Source: Pseudomonadota bacterium (GTDB lineage: Bacteria; Pseudomonadota; Gammaproteobacteria; Burkholderiales; Burkholderiaceae). From it: 21,475 bases of DNA. Below the pieces are notes generated by a model, which made no database searches, had not been told where the DNA came from, and saw only the letters and a list, made by a program, of their open reading frames with translations. Within the stretch, counting starts at the first letter, position 1; the number at the start of each line of letters is the position of its first letter. The stretch covers positions 1 to 21,475 of the forward strand of contig JAJXUC010000055.1 of assembly GCA_021783435.1 (NCBI GenBank), written 5' to 3'. Shown piece after piece: positions 1 to 15,273 of this stretch. The translations under genes and the position numbers were made by a program.

Positions 1-1270
1 TGCTGCCGGCGATCGTGCCGGCGCTTGCCGCCGCCGGGCACGTCGAGCCTGCGCTCGCGGTGCAGGACCAGGTCACATTGGTCAGGGCACTGGGCAGGAC
101 GTTCGTGAGCGTGGCGTTGTTCGCCGGGGTGGAACCGATGTTGGCGGCGGTGACGACATAGGTGACCGTGCTGCCTGCGGCAATCGTGCCGGGGCCGGTT
201 TGGGTCACGCTCAAATCCGGTAGGCCCTCGGTGAAATACACGTCCCGGACTTCGTGGTAATTCGTCGCTCCGCCCGTGGAGCCGGCGAAGCCGAACTTCA
301 CAGTGGGTGGCAATGGGGTCCAGGTCGATGGGATGGTGAAGTTCGGCGCCTTGTTGCCTGCGGTGGGGGGCGTATTGCCCGCTGGGTAAGGCGCACTCAT
401 CATCTGTGTGAAAGCACCATTCGGCGTGGTCGCCCAATAGAGCGTGACGGTGTAGCCGTTTTGCGGATTGGCTGGATCGGTGGGCGAAATATTGAGGCGC
501 ACACGGCGGTAGAACTGCGTATCCGTCGGGCGTGTGGAAATGGACGGCGTGTAAAAGGTCGAGAACGCTCCGATTGAACTCGGCACATTCTTCTGGTTGA
601 CGTCAGCCAGCCATTTGTAGCCATTGCTGCCATTGCCCGGGCCACGGATACCCAGCGCGGTGTAATAGCCTGAGCTGTGACCCTGGGGTTCCCCACCATT
701 CTGGCAACGGTCATAGCCATTCTCGAAATTGCCATAGTCGTCGATGCCAACGCCGATCACGGCGTTGCTCAGTCCTCCAGGCGAGTTGCCGTACCCGGCG
801 CAATAGCCGAGCGCACCGCCAAAGTCACCCTGCACGAATGTCGTGGTCGCGCCATCGAACAAATACATGCTGATGCCGTCGGCGCCGGTACCACCCCAGG
901 CGCTGTAGGTGAATTCCACCTGAATGCCCAGATTGCTGACGTTGATGGGCAGGTTGTAATAGGCCGAACCCTTCTGGTTGTTGGTGTTGTCGGTCAGACG
1001 CAGCCAACCCTGGCCTGCCGCGTCGATGCCTGTTGCCGCCGTCAGGGAGGAGTTCTTCCCGGTATAGGCCACCCCAGGGCTTGCGGCACCGGCATAGGTC
1101 CAGCCGCTGGCGCCGGCATCGCGAAAACATTGCGAGACGGGCTGGAAGCTGACCGACGCGGTGGATGTGCCGCTGTCGGCCCGGGCCGCGCCGACGAGCG
1201 CGAACATGCCCGCCGCCACGATTGCCCGAACCGCGTGGCTGCAGCTGGGAATTGCCTGGAATAGCACCAT
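1..1270 (-). CDS. Secreted L-type lectin / DUF11-repeat protein (C-terminus beyond window)
   Basis: The reading frame is open for 423 codons from ATG at 1270 to the window edge, so only the N-terminal part is visible. Residues 1-31 form a Sec signal peptide (hydrophobic core about 15-28, likely cleavage after ARA31). Residues about 35-348 look like an L-type (legume-type) lectin sandwich. They carry GADGISMYLFDG (129-140), a metal-site-like segment GIDDYGNFENGYD (175-187), and a closing strand KFGFAGSTGG...NYHEVRDVYF (325-346) that matches the family's C-terminal pattern. From residue 351 a DUF11/conserved-repeat domain begins (PDLSVTQTGPGTIAAGSTVT). An AAGGG-like ribosome site lies about 8 nt before the start. 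The gene follows pilX by 53 nt with no visible terminator, so it is probably in the minor-pilin operon, in the place where pilY1 is usually found. A glycan-binding surface or pilus-associated adhesin is inferred. The lectin fold is well supported; the ligand and location are not known. Confidence 0.85.
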   Translation of the reverse strand, partial: MVLFQAIPSCSHAVRAIVAAGMFALVGAARADSGTSTASVSFQPVSQCFRDAGASGWTYAGAASPGVAYTGKNSSLTAATGIDAAGQGWLRLTDNTNNQKGSAYYNLPINVSNLGIQVEFTYSAWGGTGADGISMYLFDGATTTFVQGDFGGALGYCAGYGNSPGGLSNAVIGVGIDDYGNFENGYDRCQNGGEPQGHSSGYYTALGIRGPGNGSNGYKWLADVNQKNVPSSIGAFSTFYTPSISTRPTDTQFYRRVRLNISPTDPANPQNGYTVTLYWATTPNGAFTQMMSAPYPAGNTPPTAGNKAPNFTIPSTWTPLPPTVKFGFAGSTGGATNYHEVRDVYFTEGLPDLSVTQTGPGTIAAGSTVTYVVTAANIGSTPANNATLTNVLPSALTNVTWSCTASAGSTCPAAASAGTIAGS

Positions 1271-1323
1271 GGTGCGTGCCCTTGGATAGGTTGTTGAATG
1301 AACAGACCGGTCCGCAATCAGCA

Positions 1324-1902
1324 TCATGGCCCGGTCAGATCCTTGATAGAGGTGAAGGCGTAGGTGCTCTGCACCACGGCCACGGAACTGGCGTTGCCGC
1401 CATAGCCCAGCGCTGTGATGAGATAGACGGTGGCATTCTTGGTGGCGTCCGGCCCGAGATACTGAATGTGGAACTTGGGGCTGGCGTAGTAGGTGCCGGC
1501 GCCTCCCGAGGCGGCAACAGTGGCCGATGGCAAAGCGTAGGTCGTGGCCACCGTCCAGTTGGACAAGTTGGCCGGGCTGCTGATCTGGTTGGTGCAGACG
1601 CGCGCCGTGTCGACAGGCGAAGGCGCGCCGCTGCATGCGACCCCGGAGCTGGCGTTGTTTTGGTTCAGCCACCATTCGGCGTAGCTGAGAGCACTATTGG
1701 CCGCCTCCAGTGCGCGGGTCTTCTCGCGCAGATTGCCGGCCATGCGTTCTTGCATGCCAAAGCTGCGGAACATGGCGACGGCGATGATGGTGAGCACCAC
1801 CAGAATGAGCAGGCTGGCGATCAAGGCGAAGCCTGAACCTGCCATCTGACTGCGTCCCGCCTGTACGGGTCTGGAGTGTGACGGCGTTCGTGACCCGTTC
1901 AT
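1324..1902 (-). CDS. pilX: Type IV pilus minor pilin PilX
   Basis: This 192-aa prepilin belongs to the PilX family, a minor pilin of the inner-membrane initiation complex that primes type IV pilus assembly. The leader ends at G24, followed by FALIASLLILVVLTIIAVAM, the N-terminal transmembrane helix. Next comes the PilX hallmark MQERMAGNLREKTRALEAA (50-68). Position 5 of the mature protein is Ala, not the usual Glu, which is normal for PilX/GspK-like pilins thought to cap the complex. The frame continues open upstream, but the ATG at 1902 is preferred: it overlaps the pilW stop in an ATGA, has a GGGA-type site just before it, and gives a normal leader. A Cys pair at 90 and 103 could form a disulfide. 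Confidence 0.88.
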   Translation of the reverse strand: MNGSRTPSHSRPVQAGRSQMAGSGFALIASLLILVVLTIIAVAMFRSFGMQERMAGNLREKTRALEAANSALSYAEWWLNQNNASSGVACSGAPSPVDTARVCTNQISSPANLSNWTVATTYALPSATVAASGGAGTYYASPKFHIQYLGPDATKNATVYLITALGYGGNASSVAVVQSTYAFTSIKDLTGP

Positions 1903-2711
1903 AGCTGTCCCAGGATGTCGATGACGCGGGTGAAGTTCACGGTTGCCGGCTGTCCGGGTTGTCCTGCAAGCGGGTTGTTGAAGGTCAGACTGACCTTGAC
2001 AGTTTTGACACGGGACCAATTGGTCACACTGGCTGCCGCGAGATACTGGTTGGCCGAACCGCCGCCGTTGGCGTCGACGCCGTAGCGCAGGGTCATGGCG
2101 GTGAGCCCGTCCGACTGCGTGGTTCCAGCCAGATTGCTGCCAACGAGCGGCTGGGTCGAACCCCCGCTGCCACTGCTCGCCGTGCTGACGCTGCATTGCA
2201 AATTGCCGCCGTTGAAGACATAGGTGTTGAGATAGGTGACATTCGCCGTGGCGGTTGCCGGATTGGTGTCACCCAGGCAACTCATGGTGCTGCTGCCAGG
2301 TGCGGCCACCACGCGGACGACGATGGCATCCTGTCCGTTGATCGTGCCGCCGAAAACCGACTGGCCGGCTGCAAATGTTGCCGGCAATGGGGCAGAAACC
2401 GCGTTCTGCACCGGCAGCGCCGTCCCAGTGTTGGGAATCGGCGTTGGCGGCTGGGGGGTGGGGTAATAACCCGCGCCGTGGATGACGTCGCTCATCAGGG
2501 TCATTGCCAGGCGCTCGTTGTCCTGCAAGCCGGCAAGACCTTGCTGCGCGGAGAAAGTTTGCCGGGTGGTGTAGAAAATCGTGAACAGACCAGCGAGCAA
2601 AAACAGGGCAATCGCCATGGCCACGAGAATCTCGACCAGCCCAAGGCCGCGCTGCCTGAAGTGTCCCGCTCGGCTGAATGTGCGCTGAGGAAGGCAACGG
2701 GGTGACGTCAT
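1899..2711 (-). CDS. pilW: Type IV pilus minor pilin PilW
   Basis: This 270-aa prepilin is a PilW-family minor pilin, acting with PilV, PilX and FimT/FimU in pilus initiation. Cleavage is predicted after G22 (RQRG), giving LGLVEILVAMAIALFLLAGL with Glu at mature position 5 and a hydrophobic helix to about residue 46. The rest is a Ser/Gly/Ala-rich globular domain with Cys residues near the middle, as in other PilW proteins. The start at 2711 overlaps the pilV stop as ATGA and lacks a clear Shine-Dalgarno sequence, so translational coupling to pilV is likely. An open extension upstream in this frame is a shadow over pilV and is not used. Confidence in the family is high. Confidence 0.88.
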   Translation of the reverse strand: MTSPRCLPQRTFSRAGHFRQRGLGLVEILVAMAIALFLLAGLFTIFYTTRQTFSAQQGLAGLQDNERLAMTLMSDVIHGAGYYPTPQPPTPIPNTGTALPVQNAVSAPLPATFAAGQSVFGGTINGQDAIVVRVVAAPGSSTMSCLGDTNPATATANVTYLNTYVFNGGNLQCSVSTASSGSGGSTQPLVGSNLAGTTQSDGLTAMTLRYGVDANGGGSANQYLAAASVTNWSRVKTVKVSLTFNNPLAGQPGQPATVNFTRVIDILGQL

Positions 2712-3241
2712 GGCTGCACCAGCAGGGTGTAAGTTTGTGTCGCCGAGGAGCCCGGCGCCCCGTTCAGCGTCACCGATTTTTCGGCCCAGGACACACTGAC
2801 TCGGCAGCTCACCGGATTGCCAGCCGCGCATTGCACCCGTCCGGTGCCCTTGGGCAGTTGCTGCACGATGAACAGGCCCCAGTTCTGCAAGTCGTAGGCG
2901 GCCATTTGCAACGGGGTCGAGCATGTACTCGCCGCGCAATCGACGCCCTGGCTGCTCACGGAACCGCTCAGGGTGGTTGACGACCACGAGGTTCCGGACG
3001 GAGAGCCCGTGGCCGTTACATCCACCGAGGTCGCCGACTCCCAATAGCCCCGGTTGGCGCGCATCATCGAGCCCATGCTGGCGGCCTGGATGGCGGCCAG
3101 GCTGCGCTGGCGCGCCACACTTGTGTTGCTCAGGGCAAGCGCCTGCATGCCGGCGATGCCGAGCAATCCGATGGCAATGACGACCAGCGCGATCAGCACC
3201 TCGATCAGGCTGAACCCTGTCTGCGGCAGCCGAGGTTTCAT
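2708..3241 (-). CDS. pilV: Type IV pilus minor pilin PilV
   Basis: This 177-aa prepilin matches the PilV family. A short leader MKPRLPQTG is followed by FSLIEVLIALVVIAIGLLGIAG, with Glu14 at mature position 5 and the typical PilV helix ending in GMQALAL. The C-terminal domain contains four Cys (102, 107, 138, 146) that could pair. The closing pattern SCRVSVSWAEKS, followed by a strand, is also PilV-like. The start at 3241 overlaps the fimT stop in ATGA and gives the canonical 9-residue leader. The longer open frame upstream overlaps fimT and is rejected. The protein should be processed by the prepilin peptidase PilD and inserted in the inner membrane. Confidence 0.9.
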   Translation of the reverse strand: MKPRLPQTGFSLIEVLIALVVIAIGLLGIAGMQALALSNTSVARQRSLAAIQAASMGSMMRANRGYWESATSVDVTATGSPSGTSWSSTTLSGSVSSQGVDCAASTCSTPLQMAAYDLQNWGLFIVQQLPKGTGRVQCAAGNPVSCRVSVSWAEKSVTLNGAPGSSATQTYTLLVQP

Positions 3242-3750
3242 GGGCAGTTCGTCCCGGAAAGAAGTTGCGCATAGCCCACCACCGAAAGCTTGACACACTG
3301 GATACGATCGGACGAGCCTGCCGCATCGCCGAGTTTGATACTGCCGGCATTGCTGCTGAACCCGTTGCGATTGAACATCACGGCCTGCAAGCTCGAAGAG
3401 GTCAGGGTGTCGGTGGACCCCAAGGCGGACTGAATCCGCAAAACCGCCTCGCCTGTGTTGACGCTGCGATTGCCGTTGGCATCCGAAAAAATCAACCACC
3501 CATTCGCCCAGTTCGTGGAGTTGCTGCATGCCGTGCCGTTGCTCGAAGCACAAATCGTGACCGGCTGTCCTTGTTTTACTGCTTCACCACGGGCGTACTG
3601 CAGATCGCTGACGAGGGCGTTCATCTCCGCCGCCATGCGGTTGGTGGTGGTGATGCTCTGGTACGACGGCAGGCCGACGACCAGCAGGATGGCCACCAGG
3701 GTCACTGTCACCAGAAGCTCGACAAGGGTCATGCCGGATTCCGTTTTCAT
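3238..3750 (-). CDS. fimT: GspH/FimT-family pseudopilin (FimT/FimU)
   Basis: This 170-aa protein is the first gene of the minor-pilin operon. A 6-residue leader MKTESG precedes MTLVELLVTVTLVAILLVVG, with Glu11 at mature position 5. It is followed by LPSYQSITTTNRMAAEMN and LQYARGEAVKQGQPVTIC, the GspH/FimT signature. FimT/FimU acts in the pilus-priming complex; some FimT proteins also bind DNA during natural transformation through a C-terminal GRxR motif. Here the equivalent site reads GYAQ (159-162), so that role is doubtful. A final Cys pair (152, 169) is present. The gene is divergent from nrdR. No good ribosome site is seen before the ATG. Whether it is FimT or FimU cannot be settled from sequence alone. 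Confidence 0.88.
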   Translation of the reverse strand: MKTESGMTLVELLVTVTLVAILLVVGLPSYQSITTTNRMAAEMNALVSDLQYARGEAVKQGQPVTICASSNGTACSNSTNWANGWLIFSDANGNRSVNTGEAVLRIQSALGSTDTLTSSSLQAVMFNRNGFSSNAGSIKLGDAAGSSDRIQCVKLSVVGYAQLLSGTNCP

Positions 3751-3780
3751 GGAGGCAAGCCTAGCCCGCGTTTGTTTCGT

Positions 3781-3810
3781 TTAGTAACTTTTCAAGACTA
3801 ACGGTATCAA
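3781..3810 (-). promoter_or_regulatory. Candidate sigma-70 promoter for the minor-pilin operon
   Basis: Reading on the minus strand, TTGATA (3810-3805) and TACTAA (3786-3781) are separated by 18 nt and lie about 30 nt before the fimT start. The -35 matches the consensus well; the -10 is poor. It is the only AT-rich stretch upstream of fimT, which is why it is listed. No transcript data support it. Confidence 0.3.
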
Positions 3811-3811
3811 T

Positions 3812-3828
3812 CGACCGACGAACGGTCG
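3812..3828. repeat. Inverted repeat CGACCG-ACGAA-CGGTCG between fimT and nrdR
   Basis: A perfect 6-bp inverted repeat with a 5-nt spacer sits in the divergent intergenic region, immediately upstream of the candidate fimT -35. Its position suits an operator or a short hairpin. No known binding-site consensus is matched; in particular it is not an NrdR box. Confidence 0.4.
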
Positions 3829-3956
3829 GCTTCGTGATGGTTCCGCGACACTGCACACCGGGTGCGGCGCCCGCGTCTGCCTGCGGTTCACCGCTGGATC
3901 TGGCGCCGGGGAATAATGCCGTCTGCACCTGCGCCACGCACTTTTGCGAACCCGCC

Positions 3957-4445
3957 ATGAAATGCCCTTTCTGTCAGCATCCCGACACCCAGGTGGTGGA
4001 GACCCGTGAGGTGGAAGACGGCACGGCCCTGCGGCGCCGGCGGCGTTGCGCCGGCTGCGACAAGCGCTTCACCACCTATGAACGTGCCGAGGTGAGTTTT
4101 CCCGCGGTGGTGAAAAAAGACGGCCGGCGGGTGGACTACTCGCGCGACAAGCTTCTCGCCTCGCTGACCCTGGCACTGCGCAAACGCCCAGTGGGGGCGG
4201 ACGCGGTGGATGCCGCCATCGGCCGCATCGAGGAAAGCCTGCTGCAGACCGGTGCGCGCGAGCTGGATTCAGCCCAGATCGGCGAATGGGTGATGGACGA
4301 GCTCAAGCGCCTGGACGACGTCGCCTATGTGCGCTTCGCTTCGGTCTACCGCAGCTTCAAAGACCCGGCGCAGTTCGTGCAAATCCTGGAAGAAATGACC
4401 CTGGCGCGCAGCAGCCGCGCCCCCAAGCGCCGGGGCAAGACCTGA
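3957..4445 (+). CDS. nrdR: Transcriptional repressor NrdR
   Basis: This 162-aa protein is NrdR, the nucleotide-sensing repressor of ribonucleotide reductase genes. The N-terminal zinc ribbon uses C3/C6 (CPFC) and C31/C34 (CAGC), with the typical [13 protein letters not shown] and RRRRRC...RFTTYER segments. An ATP-cone domain follows from about residue 47 to 137 ([16 protein letters not shown]). The length is close to the usual 150-160 aa, with a short basic tail PKRRGKT. The frame is open upstream to 3834, but MKCPFC is the universal start of the family, so 3957 is chosen. The next gene is ribD, 96 nt downstream on the same strand. Confidence 0.97.
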
Positions 4446-9360: not shown

Positions 9361-9429
9361 AGCCGGCAGCCGGCCGGCATGGCAACGAACCCCCGCCGGG
9401 GCGCATGCCATGCCGGCCGGCTGCCGGCT
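9361..9429. repeat. Perfect 24-bp inverted repeat (large hairpin) at the tamB 3' end
   Basis: The arms at 9361-9384 and 9406-9429 are exact reverse complements over 24 bp, separated by 21 nt. The spacer contains a smaller hairpin CCCC-GCC-GGGG (9391-9401). On the tamB strand the structure begins with the A of the TGA stop codon. It could end tamAB transcription or protect its 3' end, but no run of U follows, so it is not a standard intrinsic terminator. The arms are built from repeated GCCGGC/CCGGC units. It separates tamAB from the ribBX operon. Confidence 0.85.
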
Positions 9430-12400
9430 CAATCGAAACGGAAGGTGTAGAACAGATCCAGCGCACTGTCGGCGCCGGACTGCAGACGCAGGTAGAAGCG
9501 GCGTGTGAAGTCGTAGCGGATGTTGAACAGGCTGCCGGTCGTGCCCAGGCCGCGCTCGACACTGACGGAGAGCTTGGAGGTGATGCGTTTGCCCAGCGTG
9601 ACGATGCTGTTTTGCAGCCCGCCCTGGCCGCTGAGCGAAAGCTGGTCCAGCCCGAGCGCGCTGGCGACGCGGCTGGTGACCGGGGCGCCCTGCCCCGAGG
9701 CCAGCAAGGCGCCGGCAGCGGTTTGCAACAAGGCCAGATTGTTGGGACTGGCACTGGTGAGATCCTGCCCCAGCACCAGCCAGGACAGGATTTCGCTGTC
9801 GGGCATGACTGGCGTGGAGGTCAGCGTGACGATGGGCGCGCGCAGGGTGCCCGTCACCTGCACCCCCACCTGCACCGGCAGACCGTCGCGCTGGGCACTG
9901 AAATTCAGCCCGGGGCTGTCGATCGGGCCGGAGAAATTCACCGCTCCGCCCCTCACCAGGGTGAGGGTCTGGCCGTAGGCGCTGTAAGTGCCTTTGCGCA
10001 CTTCAATGCTGCCGAATGCGGCCAGCGGCCTGCCGGGAGCGGCCCGCAAGGTGAGCTGGCCGCCGAGCTTGGCGTCCAGGCCGTAGCCGGTGACATGCAC
10101 GTCGCGCCCGAGATCGACCTCGACCACGGCCGCGATGCCGTAGCCGGCCGTGGGCGACGACGCGGGCGCCAGCACCGGCCGGCCCTCGACCACCACGTCG
10201 CCGGCCAGCTTGGGCGCACTGCCGCGGGGCAACTCGAAGTCGGCGCTGTCCACGCTCAGTTTGCTGTTCAGCTCCACGCTGTGGCCTTGCAGCGTGAGCG
10301 TGCCGCTGCCGCTGACCACCGCCTGGCGGTCGGGCCGGTTGAGCACCTGCAGTTGCTGCGCGCTGAACTGAAGGCTGGCCTGCGGCTTGGCATTGGCGAA
10401 GCTGGCACTGCCGCTGGCCGTGAGCTTGCCCTGCCCGCCCTGCATGCTGAAGCGGGTGAGCTCAAGCGTGTCGCCGCTGAAGCCGGCGTCGAGCACACCG
10501 CCTTGCAGGTTCAGCCCTTCGGCGGGGAGGGTCACGGCCAGGGCGCGGCCGGTGAGCGCACCACGCAGTTCGGGTTTGGCCACGCTGCCGGCGGCCTTCA
10601 TGTCCAGCAGCAGCTTGCCGCCGAGCTTGGCGGTGGGGCCGAGCAAGGGCGCGGCCCAGGCGATGCTCGGCAGGTCGGCGTGCAGACTGCCGGCCAGCGG
10701 CGCTGCCGCGTCAACGCCCCAGGCCCGGCCATGCTTGCTCACCTGGGTCTGCACCTCGGCATGCACGCTGCCGAACAGGCCGCCGGTGGCGTCGAACCGG
10801 GCGGACAGGGCATCGTCTTTCGCTTGCAGTTGCAGCCGCAGTTGCGACAGGCCCAGGCTCAAGCGCGGGTTGGTGGGCAGGTTCACATCGCCCGCGCTGC
10901 GTGCCACGACGACGTGACCCGACAGGGTGTTGGCCGCATGCAGCGACCAATCGGCGTCGAACCGCAGGGTGGACTGCACGCCATGCAGGTCGGCGCCGAA
11001 CAGAGCGAGCCAGTAGGTCGGGTCCACGCCCTGCGCGCTGCCCGTGGTGTCGAGTTGACCGGCGTTCCACGCGGCGCTGGCGAGGTCGAGCGAGCCGCCG
11101 GCGCTGCGCAACCTGGCGTGCTGCAATTCCAGGTGATTTTTCGCCAGAAGCAATGGCGCCGGGGCCAGCAAGTCCACGGCGTAGCGCCCGCGGTTGCTGA
11201 ACTGCTCGATGCTCCCCTGCCAGCCCTGCGCGGCGGTGTAGCCGCCGGCCAACGCGGCGCTCAAGTCGAGGTCGGCATTGCGCAGGCGCAGCGCGATGCG
11301 CTGCGCGTCCAGCCGGCCCGCCGCATCCACCTCGGCCCGCTGCAGCGTGAACGTGCCGGCAGTGATGCCGCTGCCCTTGAGGTGCAGCTTGAGCTGGCCT
11401 TGCGCTCCGGCTTGCAATTGGCCGCTGGCGTCCAACGACTGCACCTGAATCTTGCCCGGGGCGGTCAGTTGGCTGACACGCAAATTGAACTGGCCCGACG
11501 GGGCGGCGGGCGTGCCGGCGAGCGTGCCGCTGGCCTGCGCCAGGCCGGCGAAAGCCGGGTCGATCTGGGCCAGCGCAGGCGCGTCCAGCGTCCAGTGCAG
11601 CAGGTCGCCGGCGCGGCCGAAATCACCACGCGCCTTGAGGCTGTTGCTGCCGAGCTTGAGGTCGGCCTGGAGGCCGCGCACCCCCGTCGGTGACACCTGG
11701 CCACGCGCCGACCCGTCGAACACATGGCCGCGCCAGCGGCTGGGTTGCACCTGCAAATCCACCTGCGCGCTGCGTGTGGCGGCGTCGCCCCGGGCTTGCA
11801 GTTTGAGGTTGAGGTCGGCAGCGGGGTAGGAAGCGGATGCGGCACCGGCTGCGGCGCGGAAGCGGCTGGGATCGAAATGCTCGAGCACCACATGCATGGC
11901 GAAGCGTTGCGGCGCGCGCAAGTCCAGCGAACCGCTGGCGTTCAGCCGCCCGCCCTGGGCTTGCAGAACGGCGTGGGCGATGTCGATGTGCTCGCCACGC
12001 CGGCTCGCACGCAGCTCGGCCAACCAGCCGGGCTGGGTCAACCACGCCTGCAAGGTCTGCTGCTGCAGATTGCCGTGCAAGTGCAGCGGGCCGCTCAGGC
12101 GCGTGGCGAGCAAGGCAGAGTCGAGGGCATGCATGTCGATCTGGCCGGCTTGCAGGTCGAGGCGGAAATGGCCTGGGGCGGCGGCATCGGTGGCGTGACC
12201 ATCCACCCGAGCAGCGGCGGTCGCGGCCATGGGCTGCGTGTCTGGCCGACTTGCGGGCAGGAGGGCAGGCGCAGCGGCAACCTGGCCGGGCGCTGACGCC
12301 CGCTTGGCCGTGGTGTAGCTGGCGCTGCCGGACAGGGTTCCGCCACCCGGCAGGCGGGCCAAGATCTGCTGGACCTGCACCCGCCCTGGCTGCACGTCCA

Positions 12401-13427
12401 GGACCGCCTGCAAGCCCAGCAGGGGTAGGCGCTTGGTGTTGATCGCGCCAGGGCGTGCGTTGCTCAACGTCAGGCTGCCGCGCAAGTGCTGCGCGCTGGA
12501 AGGCTGCAGGTCGAGTTGCAGGTCGAGCAGGGCCATGGGCAGTTTCAGATCGATGCGCGCCGGGTCCATGTTTTGGGCGTCGATCGTCGCGCTGCGCAGC
12601 GGCAGCGCGGCAAACGGCGCCAGCGCGGCGTCGAAACGGGCGTGGGTCTGCAAGGCGTTGACCATGCCCTGCAGGCGCAAGGCTTGCAGGCTGCCGGAGG
12701 GTCGCACGTCAAGCTGCACCGACGATGGAGCCCGCGCGCCCCGCAGGTGCAGCGTGGCCTGCAATCTGCCCTGCACGGCAAACGGTCGCGCCACGCCCAG
12801 CGTCAACCGCGCCCGGCCCTGGCCCCAGGGCGTGCTGGCTTCGGCATGAAGCTGCACCTGCCCCGCCCCGGTCCGCAGGCTGGCGTCGAATCGGCCCAGG
12901 GGCTTGCGCGCGCCGGGCGGTCCCAGGCGCAGGGCTCCGATATGCAGCCGCGCCACGCGCAACTCCAGTGGCAGTGCCAGGCTTTGCGGCAGCTTGGGCG
13001 GGCCGCTGCGTGGGCCGGGAGGAAGGTTCAAGTCGAGCGTGCTGACCGACAAGAGCCGCACATCCACCAACCTGGGCTGGTGCAACAGGGCGCGAGGGTT
13101 CCAGCGCAGGTGCAGGTCGCGCGCATGCACGTCCACCCGAGGGCTTTGCAGTTGCAGCCGCTCGATGCGCAAATCGCCCCAGACGTCGCCGCGTATGCCT
13201 TGCAGTTCCAGATGGACGGCGCCGAACTGCAAGGGCTGGCTGCTGAGCCAGCGCAGGCCCGAGCCGGTGCCCAGCCAGGCGAGCGCCGCCAACAGCAGCA
13301 CGATGAGCAGCAGCACCACCACCAGGCTGCGCCAAGTCCAGGTCCACAGCCTGCGCCAGACGCTGCGCCGGCGTGACGCAGGAGCCTCGGGCGCGGCGGC
13401 TGGGTTTGGATCCGGCGTCAGAGCCAT
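9429..13427 (-). CDS. tamB: Translocation and assembly module inner-membrane protein TamB
   Basis: This 1332-aa protein is TamB (DUF490/AsmA-like superfamily). It spans the periplasm and works with TamA in outer-membrane protein insertion and, in current models, lipid transport to the outer membrane. Residues 1-33 are a basic cytoplasmic head and residues about 34-53 form a single transmembrane anchor (SLVVVLLLIVLLLAALAWLG). The long middle part is a monotonous beta-rich repeat of L-x-L/G-x-L segments, as expected for the hydrophobic-groove taco fold. The C-terminal DUF490 region has PVQVGVQVTGTLRAPIVTL, SWLVLGQDL and the closing NIRYDFTRRFYLRLQSG...YTFRFD. Its ATG is 1 nt after the tamA stop, so the two are co-translated. 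Length is in the family range. Confidence 0.95.
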   Translation of the reverse strand: MALTPDPNPAAAPEAPASRRRSVWRRLWTWTWRSLVVVLLLIVLLLAALAWLGTGSGLRWLSSQPLQFGAVHLELQGIRGDVWGDLRIERLQLQSPRVDVHARDLHLRWNPRALLHQPRLVDVRLLSVSTLDLNLPPGPRSGPPKLPQSLALPLELRVARLHIGALRLGPPGARKPLGRFDASLRTGAGQVQLHAEASTPWGQGRARLTLGVARPFAVQGRLQATLHLRGARAPSSVQLDVRPSGSLQALRLQGMVNALQTHARFDAALAPFAALPLRSATIDAQNMDPARIDLKLPMALLDLQLDLQPSSAQHLRGSLTLSNARPGAINTKRLPLLGLQAVLDVQPGRVQVQQILARLPGGGTLSGSASYTTAKRASAPGQVAAAPALLPASRPDTQPMAATAAARVDGHATDAAAPGHFRLDLQAGQIDMHALDSALLATRLSGPLHLHGNLQQQTLQAWLTQPGWLAELRASRRGEHIDIAHAVLQAQGGRLNASGSLDLRAPQRFAMHVVLEHFDPSRFRAAAGAASASYPAADLNLKLQARGDAATRSAQVDLQVQPSRWRGHVFDGSARGQVSPTGVRGLQADLKLGSNSLKARGDFGRAGDLLHWTLDAPALAQIDPAFAGLAQASGTLAGTPAAPSGQFNLRVSQLTAPGKIQVQSLDASGQLQAGAQGQLKLHLKGSGITAGTFTLQRAEVDAAGRLDAQRIALRLRNADLDLSAALAGGYTAAQGWQGSIEQFSNRGRYAVDLLAPAPLLLAKNHLELQHARLRSAGGSLDLASAAWNAGQLDTTGSAQGVDPTYWLALFGADLHGVQSTLRFDADWSLHAANTLSGHVVVARSAGDVNLPTNPRLSLGLSQLRLQLQAKDDALSARFDATGGLFGSVHAEVQTQVSKHGRAWGVDAAAPLAGSLHADLPSIAWAAPLLGPTAKLGGKLLLDMKAAGSVAKPELRGALTGRALAVTLPAEGLNLQGGVLDAGFSGDTLELTRFSMQGGQGKLTASGSASFANAKPQASLQFSAQQLQVLNRPDRQAVVSGSGTLTLQGHSVELNSKLSVDSADFELPRGSAPKLAGDVVVEGRPVLAPASSPTAGYGIAAVVEVDLGRDVHVTGYGLDAKLGGQLTLRAAPGRPLAAFGSIEVRKGTYSAYGQTLTLVRGGAVNFSGPIDSPGLNFSAQRDGLPVQVGVQVTGTLRAPIVTLTSTPVMPDSEILSWLVLGQDLTSASPNNLALLQTAAGALLASGQGAPVTSRVASALGLDQLSLSGQGGLQNSIVTLGKRITSKLSVSVERGLGTTGSLFNIRYDFTRRFYLRLQSGADSALDLFYTFRFD

Positions 13428-13428
13428 C

Positions 13429-15273
13429 TCAGAAACTCACCCCGGCGTTGAACTGCAGGCGGTAGGACTGGATGGCCTGACCATAGGCCAGGTCGATGCT
13501 GATGATGCCGGCCGGGCTGCGCCAGCGCGCGCCGATGCCGTAGCCGGCCACGGTCTTCAAGGCGCCGAAGCTGTTGGCCGCGTCGCCCCGGTCGTAGAAC
13601 ACCGAGGCACCCCATTGCGGCGTGAGCCAGTGCACCGCCTCGGCACTGGCGGTGAGCAGGGCGCGGCCGCCGACGATGGCTCCGCCCTCGGTCACACCCA
13701 GGCTCTGGTAGGCATAGCCGCGCACCGAGCCGATGCCGCCGGCGCGAAACAATTCCTGCTGCGGAATCCCGTTGGCCGACGGGCTGAACACGCTGCCCAC
13801 CTCGCCCCGCAGGATGAGCTGGTTGCGGCTACCCAGCGGGATGTACTGCACCCCGCGAAGCACCAGGCGAATGAAGTTCTGATCCGACAGGAGGGCCTTG
13901 CTGCCGGCGCCGATCTGGGCGTTGACCAGGCTGCCGCTGCTGGGGTCGATCGGATTGTCCAGGCGACGCCGCGTCCAGGAATAGTTGGGCATGAGCGCCT
14001 GGGCGGTGGTGCTGCCGTAGCCGAGCACGTCCTGCCGCTCGGTGATGTACTGCAGCGACAGCACCGTCTCGATCGGCCCGTCCAGGCGCTGGCGCTGGCC
14101 GCCGAGAATCAGGCTGCGGGTGGTCAGGCCCTGGATGTTGGCATGCTGCACATCGGCGCTCAGGCTGTAGCGCGAACCGTTTGCCGCCCGCGGAAAAGCC
14201 AGGCCCGCGCCCAAGGACTGCAGCAGGGTTTCCAGCTTCAGTGCGCTGGTGAAACGCCAGGCACGACCGAGGATGTTGAGGTTCTCGTAGTCCACCTGGG
14301 TGCGCGCCCCGGTGTTGCTGCTGTAACCCACCCCCAGTCCCAGTTTTTGCGGTTTGTATTCGACCACCCGCACCTGCACGGGCAGCATGGTGCCTTGCGC
14401 CTCGGTCAGCGGCGCCGCCACCGTGGCCGTGCGGAAATAGCGGCTGCCCTGCAGCAGTTGCTGGTACTCCAGCAGCTTGGCCTGCGTATAAGGCTGGCCC
14501 GGCTGGAAAGGAGCCAGGCGCTGCACGATGCTTGCGGGGTAGAGCTTCAGGCCTTCGACCTGCACCGGGCCGAAGCTGTAGCCGGGTCCGGTGTCGAGCA
14601 CGAGACGCAGCGCCGCGCTGTGCCGCTTCGGGTCCACCCGCGCCTGGCTTTGCGCGATGTGCGCCGCCGGGTAGCGCCGTGTCAGCAGGCCGAGCAAGGC
14701 ATTGCTCTTGGCGGTTTCCCAGGCAGCGCTGCGAAACACCTGTCCGTCGGCCAGCGACCAGTCGTGGCGCAGTCTGGCGGCCAGCGACGCATCGGGCTGG
14801 CCGTCGGGGCCGTTCACCTGCAAGTCCAGCCCGGTTACGCGTGTGGCCTCGCCGGGCTGAACCTGAATCGTCACCACGACCGGTTTGGCCACGGTCTCCA
14901 GGCCAACTTGGACTCGCGGTGAGAAATAGCCCTCGGCGGCGAGCAGATCGGCCACCTGCTTCGGCACTTGATCGATCAAGGCGTGCAGTTGCTCCGGCGT
15001 GATGTCTTCAAACACGCGCCAACGCTCGATGTCGAGATCCTGCTTCAGCAAAGCTTGCCATGCGTGCGGAGCATCGATGCGAACGTCGTACCGTGCGGCT
15101 GTGGCCGGCGCAGATGCGGATGCTGCTGGCTGGGCTGAACCTGCCGCGATCGCCAGATGCGGCTGCAGCCCGCCCGCCAGCGCCAGCGCCAGCAGCAGGG
15201 TCAACCGGTAAAGCGGCCACACCCGTGCGGGTGGACTGACAGGCAGAGTTGGCGCGGCGTGCTCGCAGGGCAT
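13429..15273 (-). CDS. tamA: Outer-membrane Omp85-family protein TamA
   Basis: TamA (614 aa) is the outer-membrane partner of TamB. A signal peptide lies in residues about 20-44 (LTLLLALALAGG, then AIAA). POTRA domains occupy about 60-305 (for example ITPEQLHALIDQVPKQVADLLAAEGYF across 91-117, and GPVQVEGLKLYPASIV). The beta-barrel follows from about 310 (KLGLGVGYSSNTG), with the conserved lid-loop motif VRGY (517-520) in GGIGSVRGYAYQSLG, then YGIGARWRSPAGIISIDLAYG and a C-terminal Phe. All features of an Omp85 member are present. The N-terminus has an unusual 20-residue polar stretch before the hydrophobic core; a later start is possible (no Met is available between 2 and 60 in frame), so 15273 is kept. 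Confidence 0.94.
   Translation of the reverse strand: MPCEHAAPTLPVSPPARVWPLYRLTLLLALALAGGLQPHLAIAAGSAQPAASASAPATAARYDVRIDAPHAWQALLKQDLDIERWRVFEDITPEQLHALIDQVPKQVADLLAAEGYFSPRVQVGLETVAKPVVVTIQVQPGEATRVTGLDLQVNGPDGQPDASLAARLRHDWSLADGQVFRSAAWETAKSNALLGLLTRRYPAAHIAQSQARVDPKRHSAALRLVLDTGPGYSFGPVQVEGLKLYPASIVQRLAPFQPGQPYTQAKLLEYQQLLQGSRYFRTATVAAPLTEAQGTMLPVQVRVVEYKPQKLGLGVGYSSNTGARTQVDYENLNILGRAWRFTSALKLETLLQSLGAGLAFPRAANGSRYSLSADVQHANIQGLTTRSLILGGQRQRLDGPIETVLSLQYITERQDVLGYGSTTAQALMPNYSWTRRRLDNPIDPSSGSLVNAQIGAGSKALLSDQNFIRLVLRGVQYIPLGSRNQLILRGEVGSVFSPSANGIPQQELFRAGGIGSVRGYAYQSLGVTEGGAIVGGRALLTASAEAVHWLTPQWGASVFYDRGDAANSFGALKTVAGYGIGARWRSPAGIISIDLAYGQAIQSYRLQFNAGVSF

Follow-up and report, generated by a model that had tools for sequence, protein, structure and literature searches.

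Clusters of minor-pilin genes of the T4aP type typically have the order fimT-pilV-pilW-pilX-pilY1-pilE. In the stretch of DNA analysed here (21,475 nucleotides, referred to as the window), such a chain of minor-pilin genes runs toward one edge, and the open reading frame (ORF) that comes after pilX begins with a signal-like segment and a lectin-like domain. The question raised by this locus is what this protein is and what it might do at a pilus. An earlier note had taken it to be a secreted lectin that might replace or complement PilY1 as a pilus-linked, glycan-binding adhesin. The analysis below points instead to the ORF being the front of a likely PilY1 tip protein, in which a lectin-like head and a DUF11 domain precede the propeller, and which is predicted to give a retractable type IV pilus, at its tip, a calcium-dependent grip on sugars (rough probability, 0.77).

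The minor-pilin operon and the reading frame after pilX

The features that matter for this question are given below, with G numbers denoting other genomes; G001 is the nearest one, and G011 and G014 belong to the same genus, Thiomonas.

3954..4445, plus strand: nrdR, the border of the cassette, which it flanks together with purN in G011 and G014
3238..3750, minus strand: fimT/fimU-like minor pilin (GspH, E 1.6e-23, and N_methyl; ATG to TGA checked)
2708..3241, minus strand: pilV-like minor pilin, named by position (N_methyl, E 1.1e-7; ATGA overlap with fimT)
1899..2711, minus strand: pilW-like minor pilin (PF16074 PilW, E 3.6e-7; ATGA overlap)
1324..1902, minus strand: pilX-like minor pilin (PilX_N, E 4.8e-11, and PilX, E 1.5e-9; ATGA overlap)
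2..1270, minus strand: 5' part (423 codons) of the putative lectin-DUF11-PilY1 gene, running off the window edge (the frame extends into PF05567 in G001)
1178..1270, minus strand: predicted signal peptide (...AARA/DSG), read by eye from the translation
245..1027, minus strand: L-type-lectin-like domain, residues 82-342 (PF18483, E 1.9e-10, under the curated cut-off)
2..217, minus strand: first half of a DUF11 domain, from residue 352 (PF01345, E 5.4e-8)

When the coordinates were checked on the minus strand, each adjacent pair in the fimT-pilV-pilW-pilX chain was indeed found to overlap by ATGA. The lectin ORF starts at the ATG at 1270, 53 nt past pilX, and leaves the window at base 1. Another possible start in this frame, the ATG at 1327, overlaps the stop codon of pilX; the start at 1270 is the likelier one because no in-frame start is found in G014 above the equivalent site, although G011 has a GTG slightly above it. 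The N-terminus, read by eye, is hydrophobic and signal-like and is followed by the lectin-like domain and then DUF11, the domain order given in the earlier note. A Pfam search found no match to the N_methyl (prepilin) motif in the lectin protein.

A scan of positions 1..4100 revealed no terminator-like site in the gap between pilX and the lectin gene; the two sites that were found both lie on the plus strand inside pilV, fewer than the 3.5 expected from the mean of shuffled sequences. The same scan gave no promoter-like site, and thus no separate promoter for the lectin gene is seen within 1..4100, which counts as weak evidence because the shuffles themselves give just 0.9 on average.

The lectin frame as a likely part of PilY1

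The PilY1 propeller of the window's own gene falls outside the window and is seen in relatives only. In G001, which has 97% DNA identity to the window region over 3.8 kb, the lectin frame continues via DUF11 and a linker into positions 1-137 of PF05567, where the contig ends; positions 139-386 of PF05567 are found at the end of contig C100 and are followed by a pilE-like pilin. G014 and G011 each carry one uninterrupted gene, of 1278 and 1261 aa, respectively, in which PF18483, DUF11, and PF05567 occur in that order (PF05567, E 1.5e-52 in G014 and 6.4e-50 in G011), with a pilE-like pilin after it. We treat G011 as Thiomonas delicata DSM 16361; NZ_LT592170.1 gives the same 1261-codon frame. The contig read from another genome, G024, carries just the portion of the gene from DUF11 to the end. 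The PilY1 calcium loop, DxDxDxxxD, is kept as DLDGDHVVD in G014 and as DMDGDHIID in G011. Furthermore, DUF11 (PF01345) scores 33.6 bits in the window and 47.6 in G001, both above the cut-off of 24.6.

Because of the continuous frame in G001 and the single genes in G011 and G014, the lectin protein is regarded as part of PilY1 rather than as a substitute for it. Judged by these relatives, the ORF likely represents the N-terminal half of PilY1, the whole protein consisting of a lectin-like head, DUF11, and the propeller. The idea that the lectin protein replaces PilY1 is therefore contradicted, since it forms PilY1's own N-terminal half in all three genomes. The placement given in the earlier note agrees with what is found: the gene occupies the pilY1 slot, after pilX and, in relatives, before a pilE-like pilin, and in these relatives no separate full pilY1 lies downstream in the operon. 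The protein is also likely to be pilus-linked, as had been proposed.

A second PilY1-like protein and the nrdR/purN cassette

In a first check (60 relatives), PF05567 matches were seen in just 8 of 28 Thiomonas genomes. These zeros do not mean that PilY1 is missing, because diverged second PilY1-like proteins escape this model: PF05567 gave no match in the four second-type proteins scanned. A diverged PilY1-like core, detected with profile A3, is present in 26 of the 28 Thiomonas genomes and in 21 of the 21 good ones; G006 and G024 lack a match, and thus the core occurs in 3 of the 4 genomes that have the window-type operon. Lectin matches to alignment A1 were obtained in 13 of the 28 genomes. 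Thirteen second-type genes, from 12 genomes chosen by such a match, each encode a lectin-like head and a diverged core; G014 has the second core and no second lectin match. Pilin-like ORFs adjoin 10 of the 13 genes, and the other three lie near contig ends. These loci (L074 4998-7949 and 12 further Thiomonas loci) often have their own pilin cluster, and none of the 13 proteins contains a canonical PilY1 calcium loop by pattern.

Because a second PilY1-like core is so widespread in Thiomonas, the window-type lectin-PilY1 is likely an extra tip protein. The suggestion that it complements PilY1 thus fails for this operon, where it does not stand beside PilY1, and holds in another sense, with a second PilY1-like core elsewhere in the genome.

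The window-type operon is rarer: relatives of its pilW with 79-95% identity were found in only 4 of 28 genomes (G001, G011, G014, and G024), ten further matches being weak (31-41% identity). In G011 and G014, nrdR and purN enclose this cassette; in G001, these two genes are split between two contigs, and in G024, one contig spans nrdR to pilX. The nrdR/purN site was read in 6 of the 24 other genomes. In four of these (G002, G012, G021, and G027), nrdR and purN are neighbours; in G017, the gap holds other pilV/pilW-like genes (L096 4297-6057), and in G022, it holds 1.8 kb without matches (L097 9137-10949). The site seems, then, to be variable. The G+C content of the cassette is 0.632 in G014 and 0.553 in G011, compared with 0.677 and 0.675 in the flanks; in the window, the cassette part (1-3750) has 0.624 and the remainder 0.680. 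Gain of the cassette by transfer is considered likelier than loss. The cassette is likely to be an accessory tip complex besides the second PilY1-like protein encoded elsewhere in the genome, and therefore a cell could fit its pili with tips of different kinds.

The lectin-like head and its predicted binding residues

The match of PF18483 (Lectin_L-type) in the window has a score of 41.4 bits, below the curated cut-off of 78.3, and the scores in G001, G011, and G014 also fall below it; for this reason, the domain is called lectin-like. When profile A2, made from the lectin part only, was compared with solved legume lectins, the matches included 7elv as the best (E 7.2e-8) and peanut lectin (5.1e-5), with ERGIC-53 at 0.057. 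In the A2 profile alignment, Asp102 and Asn152 (residue numbers are counted from the start of alignment A1) align with Asp83 and Asn127 of peanut lectin. We take Asp, Gly, and Asn to be the sugar-binding residues of loops A, B, and C in L-type lectins; in the present numbering, these are Asp102, Gly123, and Asn152.

Thirty-seven PilY1 heads were aligned, 16 from Thiomonas (window included) and 21 from other genomes. All 37 have Asp102, Gly122, Gly123, Asp148, Asp158, and His310, and 35 have Asn152, in a set that was collected and aligned with the lectin profile and hence favours heads keeping its residues. As for the calcium ligands, Asp148 and Asp158 are thus invariant, and the aromatic residue at 150 (Tyr, Phe, or Trp) is found in 35 of 37, as is Asn152; the exceptions are the same two Thiomonas heads, G008_C and G012_B, which lack both the aromatic residue and the Asn. 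In place of the Glu that serves as a manganese ligand in plant legume lectins, all 37 heads have Gly. The ERGIC-53 branch of L-type lectins likewise has no manganese site, and the residues of the head would fit a calcium-only L-type lectin. Glycan binding by the protein, as the earlier note envisaged, is likely when judged from the kept sugar and calcium residues.

Could the head instead serve as a spacer stabilised by calcium, or bind proteins, without binding any sugar? The Pfam score below the cut-off, the Gly at the manganese site, and the two Thiomonas heads without Asn would be consistent with such a role, and the AlphaFold models, with inputs of one sequence or of four alike (85-99% identical to the first), have mean pLDDT values too low to show a fold (35.2 and 29.8). 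However, the heads preserve their residues at the Asp/Gly/Asn and calcium-ligand positions even though, outside the window type, their identity to the head of the window is only 27-35%, and a head that binds no sugar is accordingly viewed as rather unlikely. Among 52 lectin proteins, DUF11 was found in those of the window type and otherwise only in a non-PilY1 protein of G605, by a profile built from two window-type proteins that more diverged DUF11 domains could escape.

Relation to known pilus proteins

The PilY1/PilC proteins of Pseudomonas, Legionella, and Myxococcus resemble the window-type protein in the C-terminal PF05567 propeller, the calcium loop, the slot after pilX, and, as read by eye, the signal-like N-terminus. 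They differ in the N-terminal half, which is L-type-lectin-like with DUF11 in the window type and vWA or DUF4114 in the known proteins; in the accessible part of a survey from 2026 that covers well-studied PilY1 proteins, the only N-terminal domains identified are vWFA and DUF4114 (PMC13190605). For PilY1.1 of Myxococcus xanthus, one of several PilY1 proteins in that genome, the variable N-terminal part has also been proposed to bind sugar in a calcium-dependent manner, but through DUF4114, another domain family. The available text describes genetic support for binding of exopolysaccharide (EPS) by this protein and states that no functional protein could be obtained for testing in vitro (PMC9109919). 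PilC of Streptococcus sanguinis is a type IV pilus subunit that bears a lectin module of the ConA-like kind, and the portion of its description that was available reports glycan binding on arrays (PMC9934059); in that case, however, the module is attached to a pilin, whereas the window-type lectin is joined to PilY1 in a protein that does not match N_methyl. The modular nature of PilY1 is an idea already known, because 68 architectures of PilC/PilY1 in InterPro are reported in the accessible text of Raynaud 2021 (PMC8179133). A PilY1 protein with an L-type lectin was not found described in the openly licensed literature, as judged from titles and the openings of abstracts among the matches listed.

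A possible mode of action

If the window-type protein is a sugar-binding PilY1, the signal peptide would direct it to the periplasm, where its core, by comparison with studied PilY1 proteins, would dock on the FimT-PilV-PilW-PilX complex and prime pilus assembly. The lectin head would then be located at the outermost tip, as the N-terminal part is in the model for Myxococcus found in the accessible part of PMC13190605. There it would bind a glycan with calcium, perhaps the exopolysaccharide of the same cell or of its neighbours in a biofilm; this target is a guess by analogy with what the available text of PMC9109919 proposes for Myxococcus PilY1.1. Retraction of the pilus would pull the cell via the bound glycan. 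PilT-family ATPases scoring above the curated cut-off are present in 6 of 6 Thiomonas genomes tested, as they are in 5 of 14 controls.

The presence of several PilT-family paralogues per genome would also suit a cassette working for a different type IV filament, for instance a pseudopilus of DNA uptake or of type II secretion, with the head binding a ligand other than a surface glycan. However, the set and order of the genes from fimT through pilY1 to pilE are those of a T4aP minor-pilin cluster, which makes this explanation quite improbable. A stand-alone secreted lectin in place of PilY1 in the operon would require a stop past the window edge in the window's strain and was rejected as extremely improbable, given the in-frame continuation in the 97%-identical G001 and the single genes in G011 and G014.

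A glycan-binding PilY1 tip, the favoured reading, would be directly testable, and the subfamily in question is spread over 13 families of one order. To our knowledge, the targets that type IV pili grip in environmental bacteria are mostly unknown. Thiomonas inhabits mine and sulfur-oxidising sites, and biofilms at such sites are a possible setting for a sugar-gripping tip.

Distribution in Burkholderiales and the class

Profile A2, whose 11 rows all come from PilY1-type proteins and which therefore favours PilY1 lectins, matched 33 genes in 30 of 399 sampled Burkholderiales genomes. PilY1-type proteins account for 22 of these genes, in 20 of the 399 genomes and, with Thiomonas's own counted, in those 13 families; one of the genes is broken by stops. 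Nine genes lie in pilin clusters read as MSHA-type, seven of them matching the DUF6701/MshQ profile and two (in G525 and G679) being without such a match. The remaining two are in G605 and in G682, the latter giving no match on re-scan. Pilin-like ORFs are found beside 18 of the 19 PilY1 loci of the order sample (L139-L157), G603 being the exception. By this PilY1-derived profile, then, lectin genes do not lie mostly away from pilin genes, since 31 of 33 are PilY1-type or in pilin clusters. The association holds only in part with the independent Pfam lectin model, for which 17 of 31 matches (in 28 of 399 genomes) are in PilY1 genes and 14 elsewhere, the latter consisting of 13 ORFs of 281-662 aa and one of 1893. 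In the 399 genomes, only four matches exceed the Pfam lectin cut-off, all of them short ORFs and none PilY1. PF05567 was found in 257 of these genomes.

In the class sample, searched with a narrower profile, 9 of 369 genomes match. PilY1 fusions occur in G374 and G067, besides G001; MshQ-type proteins in G142, G185, G292, and G402; and G369 and G161 have an outer-membrane-barrel protein and a 4736-aa frame, respectively. A scan of named genomes with the narrow alignment A1, whose rows are 89-99% identical to the first, gave three loci. At L169 (G796:C143), a lectin-PilY1 gene has three stop codons in the lectin part, and an intact copy is present on C21.

Related lectin-like heads are also found on MshQ-type proteins (L158-L162, L165-L168, L085, L086, L088, and L089), MshQ (DUF6701) being a protein of MSHA pili. 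The nine loci from the order sample adjoin pilin genes, two of them being MshQ-type by cluster only. MshQ is a separate tip-protein family, and the second calcium Asp is replaced by Glu in 13 of 13 aligned MshQ-type heads (4 from the class sample). The presence of such heads on MshQ-type proteins too suggests that one glycan-reading part is reused on different filaments.

Evolution of the lectin fusion

Two trees were made from the cores only, with the non-lectin rows (12 and 50) being a chosen sample. The first contains 77 PilY1 cores, 27 with and 50 without lectin, and was obtained by a quick search without bootstrap; its lectin rows represent 27 of the 36 lectin proteins of full length, with nine second-type rows from Thiomonas excluded. 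The second has 50 rows, 38 lectin and 12 non-lectin. In the 77-core tree, 22 lectin proteins, including the window type, form one clade against the 50 non-lectin cores (SH-aLRT 100); another, remote clade is made up of the lectin proteins of the diverged second type. Because the lectin proteins group in two core clades, head and core appear to travel together inside each. Both trees were examined for a single origin of the fusion: the starred branches of the 77-core tree force two changes, and the 50-row tree likewise needs two. These topologies would imply at least two gains of the lectin, or a gain and losses.

With heads found on MshQ as well as on two PilY1 lineages remote from each other, it may be proposed, tentatively and at somewhat less than even odds, that L-type lectin heads are a shared glycan-reading module that can be swapped between the tips of type IV filaments, and that in Thiomonas the nrdR/purN gap has received an entire lectin-tipped minor-pilin cassette, from fimT to pilE, to form a second tip complex. 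If this is true, one cell could carry pili that read different sugars.

Other genes in the window

Farther along the window, at 9429-15273 on the minus strand, a gene for TamB (1332 aa) comes directly after one for an Omp85/POTRA protein (614 aa); this looks like the usual translocation-and-assembly-module pair.
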